From the NCBI GenBank assembly GCA_022828125.1, contig JAJEJD010000002.1, positions 1 to 64,000 of the forward strand: a stretch of 64,000 nucleotides of DNA. The letters are read 5' to 3'. This document shows positions 10,683-37,492 of the stretch, one piece after another (position 1 is the first letter of the stretch; every line of letters starts with the position of its first letter). The notes beneath the pieces are model-generated. The model did no database searches and was not told the origin of the DNA. It saw only the letters and a list, made by a program, of their open reading frames with translations. The stretch is from a bacterium (GTDB taxonomy: Bacteria > UBA8248). A program made the translations under genes and the position numbers.

Positions 10683-12608
10683 TCAAGCCTCCGCCGAGCG
10701 ATGGGCGTCCAGCACCTCCCGAAACCAAAGCTCCAAAACCGCCAGAAACCATACAAGGGGATAGGTTGATTTCCCTTCCCGGAAACGGGCGTATTGCCTG
10801 CGAACTTCTTTGGGCGAGAAAATCCCTCTTCTGCGAAGCGACTCCTCACTCAGCGCGTCTTCGAGGATTTCTCGTAAATCTCCTCTCATCCACTTCGCCA
10901 TCGGAAGGGCGAAGCCCTGTTTTCTCCTGCCTGAAATCTCAGGAGGGATAACGTCGCGAAGCGAAGCCTCAAGCAATTTCTTCGGGTGCCCCCATCTTCT
11001 CTCCCACCCGGACGGCAGGCCACAAACGAATTCCACGACATGATGATCGACAAACGGCACCCGCACTTCCAGAGAATGGGCCATGCTCATTGCGTCGGTA
11101 TCCCGCAAGGTTCTCCATCCCATGTACACCTGCATTTCGAGTTCGCTCAGAACGCTCCAGGGTCTCTCGCCGATGCGGACCAACGAATCGAGCATCGCCA
11201 AAATATCTTCATCCGCTTTTCGCTCGTGAAAATGGTCCTGAAATTGCGGGGAATACAAAGCCCTCTTCTCCTCGGGCCACAACAAAAGGCGCGCCAAGGC
11301 GTACAATCCCAGCGGCGATTCCACCCGTTGCAGCCGACGAAACTTTTCGATGCGCTCCAAAGGCATATTCGGACAGAAGGGGAGCATCAGCGAGACAAGA
11401 GTCACGAGGGTTTTTCTCGCCGCAAAAGGCAACTTTCCCCATGTGGTCGACATCCGCCACCAAGGCGGTATCAGGCGAAACGAGTCGTAGCCGCCGAAAA
11501 GCTCATCCGCCCCGAGACCGGACAAGGCGACGGTAACGCCATTTTGCCTGGCTATCTGGGATACGAGATAAGTGTTGACTCCATCGAAGCTGGGCTGATC
11601 CAGGTGCCGTATGATCCGGGGAAGTTGCTCCACTAATTTCGAGCCTTTGAGCACGAACTCGGTATGGTGCGTTGAGAAGAATTGCGCGGCCGTTCTCGCA
11701 TATCGCCTCTCGTCGTATCCTTCCGGAGCATTATCAAAACCGACCGAATAGGTCCTTACAGGCTTATCCGCCTGATGCGACATCAATCCCACAATCGCCG
11801 AAGAGTCCAAGCCACCACTCAAAAAAACCCCTAAGGGGACATCGCTTATCATGTGGAGTTCGACGCTTTCCTGCAGCAAGCTACGCAGGCGGGGAAGGAT
11901 TTCCCCATCGGCGCATCGTGTCGTTCCGGCCATCGGCATCTCCCACCACCGCTCGATGGATGCTTTCCTCTCCGTAATGCGTATCCGGTGTCCAGGAGGC
12001 AAGGCCTTCACGCCTTTCAGTAGCGTGCGCGGACCGGGAACAAAGCCCAGGGAAAGGCCGAGGTCGAGAGAATTCAGGTCGAGTTCGGGGCGAATAACGC
12101 CGCTTCGCACCAATGCTCCCAGTTCCGAGGCGAACGCCCATCCACCCGCAATCGGCGCGTAGTACAAAGGCTTGACGCCTAGCCGGTCGCGGGTCAAAAG
12201 CAAAACTCCTCGACCGGCGTCCATGATCGCAAATGCGAACATACCTCTCAAAAAACGAGCGCATTCATCTCCCTCTTCCTCGTAAAGGCGTAGTAGAACC
12301 TCCGTGTCGGATTGCGATCTGAAGACATGGCCGCAACCCTCTAAATGCTCCCTCAATCGTCTGAAATTGTAGATTTCTCCGTTCAGTGCAACGCAGATTT
12401 TCCCATCTTCGCTGATCATGGGTTGTTTCGCAGCCGAACTCGGGTCGATGACGCCCAGACGCCTCACGCCGATGCCGGTCGCGCGGAAACGCCAAAGCCC
12501 CACATCGTCGGGTCCGCGATGCGTCATCGCATCACACATCCGCGCAACGCCCTCCTCTATCGAGGACGGCGAGAGTTCGGTCGAGGTGATTCCACAAATT
12601 CCGCACAT
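10683..12608 (-). CDS. asnB: Asparagine synthase (glutamine-hydrolysing), second copy
   Basis: About 641 residues starting MCGICG, giving the Cys nucleophile of the amidotransferase domain. The PP-loop SGGLDSSAIVGL and the ALSGLGADELFGGY segment mark the synthetase domain. The start is set at 12608 so that Cys is residue 2; an open frame extends 12 bases upstream. It differs clearly from the first copy at 2463-4409 and sits in the glycan operon between an ABC exporter and a GT2. As with the first copy, amidation of a sugar acid is more likely than asparagine supply, but this is inferred from context. Confidence 0.92.
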   Translation of the reverse strand: MCGICGITSTELSPSSIEEGVARMCDAMTHRGPDDVGLWRFRATGIGVRRLGVIDPSSAAKQPMISEDGKICVALNGEIYNFRRLREHLEGCGHVFRSQSDTEVLLRLYEEEGDECARFLRGMFAFAIMDAGRGVLLLTRDRLGVKPLYYAPIAGGWAFASELGALVRSGVIRPELDLNSLDLGLSLGFVPGPRTLLKGVKALPPGHRIRITERKASIERWWEMPMAGTTRCADGEILPRLRSLLQESVELHMISDVPLGVFLSGGLDSSAIVGLMSHQADKPVRTYSVGFDNAPEGYDERRYARTAAQFFSTHHTEFVLKGSKLVEQLPRIIRHLDQPSFDGVNTYLVSQIARQNGVTVALSGLGADELFGGYDSFRLIPPWWRMSTTWGKLPFAARKTLVTLVSLMLPFCPNMPLERIEKFRRLQRVESPLGLYALARLLLWPEEKRALYSPQFQDHFHERKADEDILAMLDSLVRIGERPWSVLSELEMQVYMGWRTLRDTDAMSMAHSLEVRVPFVDHHVVEFVCGLPSGWERRWGHPKKLLEASLRDVIPPEISGRRKQGFALPMAKWMRGDLREILEDALSEESLRRRGIFSPKEVRRQYARFREGKSTYPLVWFLAVLELWFREVLDAHRSAEA

Positions 12609-35760: not shown

Positions 35761-36549
35761 CTAGAGCAAATCCCCCTGGAGGACGGTTACGGCCTTACCA
35801 CTCAGGACGATGCGATCTCCCAGAATTCTCATACGCACCACCCCGCCTCTCGTGGATGCCTGATAGGCCGTAAGTTCTTCTTTTTTGAGGCGTTTCGACC
35901 AGAACGGCCCCAGGCAACAATGGGCGGACCCCGTCACAGGGTCTTCGTTCACGCCCAGGCCGGGTGCGAAGAATCGAGACACGAAATCGTATTGGGGGTC
36001 CTCCGAGCGCGCCGTGACGATGCAGCCGCGCATGGAAACTGTCTGGAGAAGCTGAAAATCAGGCGCCAGGGTCCTGATTGCCGCCTCGGAGTCGGCTTCC
36101 ACCAGATAATCGAACTCGTTTTTCCCTACATAGCGGGGCATCAGGCCGAGACCCTCCACCAGGGCATCAGGAGGCGCTGCGGGAGACTCTCTGCTTATGG
36201 GGAAATTCATCTCTATCCATTCATTTTTCTGCTCACAGGTCAAAACCCCGCTTTTCGTGTGGAAGATGACCGTCTCATCCGACTCAAGATGCCCCTTCTC
36301 CCAGAGAACATGGGCGCTCGCAAGCGTTGCGTGGCCGCAGAGCTCTACCTCGCTCACGGGCGTGAACCATCGCAGGCCGTAGCCGTCTTCTTGTTTCACC
36401 ACGAACGCGGTCTCAGAGAGGTTCATCTCCGACGCCACGCGCTGCATCCACCCCTCATCCACTTGCGACGGCAGGATGCAGACAGCGGCCGGATTGCCCG
36501 AAAAGGGCGTATCGGTAAACGCATCCACCTGAATGATGGGAAATGACAT
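35761..36549 (-). CDS. PhzF family isomerase
   Basis: The 262-residue protein has the PhzF marks FSGNPAAVCIL near the start, EMNLSETAFV with the catalytic Glu, ELCGHATLASAHVLW, and GVNEDPVTGSAHCCLGP with the second-domain Asp. PhzF enzymes isomerise or epimerise small acids such as dihydrohydroxyanthranilate in phenazine synthesis, but most bacterial members have unknown substrates. No phenazine genes are near. It is followed upstream by a MOSC gene 25 bases away on the same strand, so it is part of a selW-MOSC-phzF unit. Confidence 0.92.
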   Translation of the reverse strand: MSFPIIQVDAFTDTPFSGNPAAVCILPSQVDEGWMQRVASEMNLSETAFVVKQEDGYGLRWFTPVSEVELCGHATLASAHVLWEKGHLESDETVIFHTKSGVLTCEQKNEWIEMNFPISRESPAAPPDALVEGLGLMPRYVGKNEFDYLVEADSEAAIRTLAPDFQLLQTVSMRGCIVTARSEDPQYDFVSRFFAPGLGVNEDPVTGSAHCCLGPFWSKRLKKEELTAYQASTRGGVVRMRILGDRIVLSGKAVTVLQGDLL

Positions 36550-36574: not shown

Positions 36575-37045
36575 TCAGATACGTTTGATGACGTCGCCTG
36601 CGCGAATTGAGCCTTCGCGTAATACCTGCGCGTTCAGCCCCGAGCGGTTGATGAGCGCGTCGTGCAGGCCGTCTATCCCAAGCAAATTCTCGAAATACCT
36701 GCATGGCTCGTTCAGGCGAACGCCGCGCATCCTTACATCGCCTACCTGAAATTCCGCGCCCACCAGGTGATTGAGCGGAACGCCGCGCGTCACGATGTTT
36801 CTCCTGCTCTGACCCGCGTCGAGATGGATATCGTGGTCGCGCGTAAGCGCCTCGATCGCTTCTATTTCGATGAGCGTGACCTCGCGATCGGGCCCCTGTT
36901 TTTTGGAGTACGTTCCCACGCCCTCGGCGTAGCGATCTCCTGCAAGTCCTGATCCTGCAACTGCTTGCGCCTGGGCGACCTCCATCATGGGTTCACCGCC
37001 CACCGAGGCGATATGCACCGAGACCACCTCGCCCTCGAAAGTCAT
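36575..37045 (-). CDS. MOSC domain-containing protein
   Basis: The 156-residue MOSC protein begins FEGEVVSVHIASVGGEPM, then GLAGDRYAEGVGTYS, TLIEIEAIEALTRDH, SRRNIVTRGVPLNHLVGA and LNEPCRYFENLLG with the conserved Cys. MOSC domains deliver sulfur or bind molybdenum cofactor, as in YiiM and mARC enzymes. The start at ATG 37045 is set by a four-base overlap with the stop of the selenoprotein gene; a longer frame to 37120 is less likely. A redox link with the SelW-like protein is plausible because the two are translationally coupled. Confidence 0.88.
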   Translation of the reverse strand: MTFEGEVVSVHIASVGGEPMMEVAQAQAVAGSGLAGDRYAEGVGTYSKKQGPDREVTLIEIEAIEALTRDHDIHLDAGQSRRNIVTRGVPLNHLVGAEFQVGDVRMRGVRLNEPCRYFENLLGIDGLHDALINRSGLNAQVLREGSIRAGDVIKRI

Positions 37046-37284
37046 GCTTTCACATGCTCCCCGATGAGATTGACGGCTTCTTCTTCCGTGGGGAAATTGC
37101 CCGAGTCGAGTTTCGACCACAAAAGCTCGCCGTCAAGCACCAGTTCGAAAGAGCCGACGCGGAAATTACCGTCCTCGTTTCCGGCGATTTCCATGTCCGG
37201 GTAATGTTTTTTCAGGTCCTGAGCCAACTGCTCATATCGTGGCCCGTAGTTTCACTTTTCGCAGTATTCAACGTGAAGTTTCAT
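37042..37284 (-). CDS. selW: SelW-like selenoprotein (SelT/SelW/SelH, Rdx family) with in-frame UGA
   Basis: Reading from ATG 37284 the protein is 80 residues: MKLHVEYCEK, then TGA at 37252-37254, then NYGPRYEQLAQDLKKH and on to NLIGEHVKA. The TGA sits exactly where the family's redox motif CxxU or CxxC has its second residue. Downstream, LVLDGELLWSKLDSGNFPT is the conserved Rdx core, and EEEAVNLI ends it. GAGAGGGG lies before the ATG. A standard gene finder would start at TTG 37227 and lose the active site. A SECIS-like hairpin follows the UGA (37220-37234). The thioredoxin-like fold likely acts as a thiol or selenol redox protein. Coupled to MOSC by ATGA. Confidence 0.9.
37220..37234 (-). 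promoter_or_regulatory. SECIS-like hairpin downstream of the selW UGA
   Basis: In the mRNA, TGAGC pairs with GCTCA around the five-base loop AGTTG, starting 18 nucleotides after the UGA. A G is the second loop base and lies 24 nucleotides from the UGA. Bacterial SECIS elements, as I recall, have a short stem, a small loop with a G among its first two bases, and that spacing range. The hairpin lies inside the coding region, as expected in bacteria. Confidence 0.7.
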
Positions 37285-37492
37285 TCATCCCCTCTCCGGT
37301 AGAGAACAAAAGTTGGCGGGCACCCGCATCATAGAAGAATTCCGCCGCGAGGAGAAGGCGTGCAGGAAGCAAAGTCCTCAAATCTGATTCTTCACACGCC
37401 GACAATTCTCCGAAACCCCCACGCGGCTTGACTATTTCGCCCACACAAGAGAAAAACACCCCGATTTCCAAAACAGAACCCGAGGAGGAGAA

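Follow-up and report, generated by a model that had tools for sequence, protein, structure and literature searches.

SelW-like proteins with a CxxU motif are the most abundant selenoprotein family in samples of marine bacteria, and have been known since 2005–2008 (PMC1088965, PMC2398784); these reports confirm the background to a preliminary description of the present locus, namely that bacterial selenoproteins of the SelW type exist. A 2026 review carries a SELENOW-like entry, of CxxU type with one Sec (PMC13188914). The locus considered here lies in a 64,000-nucleotide stretch of bacterial DNA (the whole stretch analysed, referred to as the window), and its sequence leaves us almost certain that it encodes a SelW-like selenoprotein in which UGA codon 11 is read as selenocysteine.

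The SelW-like (Rdx/SelWTH family) gene occupies positions 37042..37284 of the minus strand, begins with ATG (37284-37282) and ends with TGA (37044-37042). Its product of 80 aa would carry the CxxU active site C8-E-K-U11, residue 11 corresponding to an in-frame TGA (37252..37254, minus strand), the candidate selenocysteine codon. The read-through protein is MKLHVEYCEKUNYGPRYEQLAQDLKKHYPDMEIAGNEDGNFRVGSFELVLDGELLWSKLDSGNFPTEEEAVNLIGEHVKA. Upstream of the ATG is a Shine-Dalgarno-like sequence, GGAGAGGGG (37289..37297, minus strand), which is kept in most of the genus and accounts for the good ribosome binding site claimed in the preliminary description. The frame, start, TGA and length of 80 residues given there were all correct, as was the expectation that standard annotation would truncate the gene after its active site: ORF calling with table 11 returns only a 61-aa frame from TTG 37227. 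When all TGA codons in the window were scanned for coding potential, five passed, and that of the SelW gene stood out; no second selenoprotein-like TGA was found among the five. The top score in the scan went to a TGA at window position 10683 (minus strand), between open stretches of 650 and 280 codons: its sequence context suggests two neighboring genes that share a frame, not a selenoprotein.

Comparison with protein families shows that the read-through protein matches Pfam Rdx (PF10262) with an E-value of 8.9e-19 (67.9 bits vs. a cut-off of 22.6, positions 2-72 of 74) and NCBIfam TIGR02174 (CXXU_selWTH) with one of 9.2e-22 (77.1 bits vs. a cut-off of 34.2, almost full length). These matches bear out the SelW likeness that had been claimed on both sides of the UGA, and the reading of CEK-UGA as CxxU is matched by alignment of the TGA with Cys in CxxC homologues of known structure: Cys occupies this column in 2ljk (CEPC), 2fa8 and 3dex (CTQC). 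Among SelW homologues inside the phylum (18 genomes), Cys was not seen at the Sec position. In a structure predicted with AlphaFold (a model from 16 relatives; pLDDT 92.6), the motif C8-U11 sits between the first strand (E2-7) and the first helix (H14-27), and SelW-related or Rdx proteins make up the whole of its top 23 PDB matches (TM about 0.72-0.84; mouse SelW 0.72). The whole-domain profile match above cut-off, the place of the CxxU motif and the thioredoxin-like Rdx fold together place the protein among the Rdx/SelW-like proteins. PDB sequence matches to p27/CDKN1B were rejected as chance, since they left out the active site and were gone with a profile search; tblastn against plasmids gave only two distant Rdx-like matches.

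The comparison set comprised 18 genomes of the order (the same 18 serving for the phylum), which belong to one family and six genera. The SelW gene was found in 16 of the 18, with representatives in all six genera, and in each of the 16 a TGA stands at the same codon; the two genomes without it rank lowest in completeness (MAGs at 67% and 70%). A check for relatives with TGC or TGT at 37252-37254, proposed in the preliminary description, thus returned none. The region before the TGA, loss of which in relatives had been named as grounds for refutation, is conserved in all 16 homologues: residues H4, E6, Y7 and C8 are retained through synonymous changes in their codons, which indicates that the upstream part is translated in the SelW frame. 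Given that the Rdx match runs across the TGA, and that TGA and downstream hairpin are kept in 16/16 homologues, the read-through frame is, on comparative evidence, not a product of chance.

That hairpin is a candidate bacterial SECIS element, with the apical stem-loop UGAGC-AGUUG-GCUCA at 37220..37234 (minus strand); its arms are TGAGC (37234-37230) and GCTCA (37224-37220), flanking the loop AGTTG (37229-37225). The hairpin begins 17 nt, and the loop 22 nt, downstream of the UGA. The published model of the bacterial SECIS requires a loop of 3-9 nt with a G at its first or second position, an upper stem of 4-16 bp, a spacing of 16-37 nt and an MFE <= -7.5 kcal/mol (PMC13188914). The hairpin of the window, with a loop of 5 (AGUUG), a stem of 5, a spacing of 22 and an MFE of -11.0 kcal/mol (UGA plus 39 nt), conforms to all of these rules, which were applied directly rather than through bSECISearch; the 42-nt folds of two relatives (L040 and L047) fall slightly short of the energy rule. 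Since the hairpin is short, its folding energy is not distinctive against shuffled sequences (z -0.2 to -0.9); its stem is invariant among the homologues and so offers no covariation, and an Rfam scan of the SelW region matched no family to the hairpin and returned nothing relevant. The strongest evidence for the SECIS candidate is constraint on the nucleotides themselves. Over codons 17-21 there are 15 synonymous differences in 536 comparable pairs (2.8%), the lowest value of any five-codon window, against a mean of 37% over windows along the gene. GAG CAG TTG GCT is unchanged even in the AT-rich relative L040, and the hairpin is present in 16/16 homologues with a single change, TTA in the loop of L047. 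Genome-wide, there is a single occurrence of this exact hairpin pattern behind a UGA. The SECIS-like hairpin claimed at the outset is therefore sustained by the published rules and by strong local synonymous constraint.

The position of the hairpin also bears on the frame returned by ORF calling. On one alternative reading the mechanical ORF is the real one: the functional product would be the 61-residue protein from TTG 37227, and the codons up to the TGA would encode a short leader peptide of their own. We regard this as extremely improbable: such a protein would be without strand 1 and the active site, its start falls inside the hairpin loop and is without a clear ribosome binding site, the supposed leader residues align with the N-terminus of the family and are conserved, and L047 has TTA in place of the TTG codon.

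Selenocysteine machinery is encoded in the genome to which the window belongs (3.92 Mb, 97% complete). The preliminary description had inferred selA, selB, selC and selD in the host, and all four are present: selA at C30:163419-164807 (E 5e-173), selB at C30:165740-167626 (E 5.9e-115), a tRNA-Sec with anticodon TCA at C30:107402-107494 and selD at C30:4116-5078 (minus strand; E 5.5e-100). The search for selB and tRNA-Sec, set beforehand as a refutation test, thus found both. Among the 18 genomes, tRNA-Sec was detected in 16 – the same 16 that have the SelW gene – and SelB in 15. The selD gene has an in-frame TGA of its own, close to the N-terminus (GG-U-GSK), and after it a possible SECIS-like hairpin, GGUCC-GGA-GGACC (read from the sequence): selD is probably a second selenoprotein gene, and the genome would then have at least two. 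One relative, G015, gave two tRNA-Sec matches (L049 and L050), on contigs C100 and C104. These contigs share only one identical stretch of 123 bases, at the very end of C100, and the pair looks like an assembly fork, not a true second gene.

Taken with this machinery, conservation of the TGA bears on two further readings. The first is that the TGA is a true stop and the locus a decayed CxxC Rdx gene, turned into a pseudogene by mutation of TGC to TGA. The two codons differ by one base, and certain Rdx homologues elsewhere are indeed CxxC; however, all 16 homologues, from six genera, have the TGA, with the frame open and constrained on both sides, the hairpin downstream is under constraint at the nucleotide level, and the genome holds the full Sec machinery. 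The conservation pattern already refutes decay, for which we see next to no likelihood. The second is that the TGA is read as a different amino acid, such as Trp or Cys, whether by another tRNA or through general suppression of UGA. Although read-through alone leaves the identity of the residue unspecified, the genome has the sel genes, CxxU is the known motif of the family, the SECIS-like hairpin is under constraint, and the SelW gene's own stop is TGA, four bases into the start of the following MOSC gene: insertion of any residue other than selenocysteine appears very improbable.

Recoding to selenocysteine is strongly supported by the comparative evidence, and would proceed as follows. Initiation would occur at ATG 37284, and the ribosome would then meet the UGA at codon 11; SelB carrying Sec-tRNA(UCA) would bind UGAGC-AGUUG-GCUCA, 22 nt downstream of the UGA, and selenocysteine would be inserted in place of termination. 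The 80-residue product is expected to adopt a small thioredoxin-like (Rdx) fold in which strand 1 and helix 1 flank the CxxU redox site; to judge from its family, it is probably a thiol/selenol oxidoreductase.

Analysis of the neighborhood shows that a gene for a MOSC-domain protein of 156 aa (36575..37045, minus strand; Pfam MOSC 6.6e-13) overlaps the SelW stop with its start (ATGA) and is a probable operon partner; the next gene downstream, of the PhzF family (35761..36549, minus strand; Pfam PhzC-PhzF 6e-67), is possibly on the same transcript. The ATGA overlap is common to the whole genus (seven genomes, the host and six relatives). The two g2 genomes that have the SelW gene (L032, L045) also encode a MOSC-like protein immediately downstream, and g4 (L035) does so after a longer gap. 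For L037 and L040, from two other genera, the gene directly after SelW encodes a PhzF-like protein, recognized by sequence resemblance, and the gene after SelW in L033 and L038 looks by eye like a putative member of the DapA family. The order SelW-MOSC-PhzF is thus conserved in part, which makes the MOSC link a lead but no proof. A literature search for SelW together with MOSC returned nothing relevant. One specific but unlikely proposal is that the two overlapping genes form a translationally coupled pair, the selenoprotein serving sulfur, selenium or molybdenum-cofactor chemistry of the MOSC protein and failure of UGA decoding lowering MOSC expression: if true, SelW would have an identifiable partner. 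The linkage offers a testable lead on the role of bacterial SelW.

A further observation concerns the homologue L047 (G015:C35:5123-5338, minus strand), whose sequence, MKMHVEY-U-QR-U-NYKPQFEQL, has a TGA in each of the two motif positions (UxxU). The distance from its first UGA to the loop is 31 nt and falls inside the 16-37 nt range. A UxxU motif is on record for SELENOW of amphioxus and Ostreococcus (PMC7539508), and a 2026 table holds no bacterial SELENOW-like UxxU entry (PMC13188914). From its sequence, L047 is possibly the first bacterial case, or else an assembly error (one MAG, one base, TGC to TGA).

Among proteins of known structure the best sequence match is Rdx12/MIEN1 (C17orf37, PDB 2ljk), which shares the EYCExC context; unlike the window protein it is an animal protein with Cys in place of Sec. 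Atu0228 (2fa8), SAV_2001 (3dex) and the SelW-related 2p0g have the same fold (TM about 0.72-0.84) at 21-27% identity in structural alignment, although Atu0228 and SAV_2001 are CxxC proteins without selenocysteine. Mouse SelW (2npb) belongs to the same family and is a selenoprotein with U at the corresponding position; the solved chain has Cys there. It differs in being eukaryotic, in having a eukaryotic SECIS in the 3' UTR (PMC1088965) and in its identity of about 29%. A narrow full-text literature search found no paper that connects selenoproteins or selenocysteine with Nitrospinae/Nitrospinota. Across the family, the near-frozen SECIS nucleotides are a compact natural data set on the requirements of SelB, and the gene, which standard pipelines would cut just after the active site, is corrected here. 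Like the bacterial SelW-like selenoproteins from the Sargasso Sea and GOS surveys, it is an Rdx family member with a CxxU motif and with a bacterial SECIS inside the coding sequence, immediately behind the UGA (PMC1088965, PMC2398784); it differs from them in the lineage of its host. The arrangement is thus a well-known one: only the host lineage is new, and this lineage may be a new entry on the selenoprotein map.
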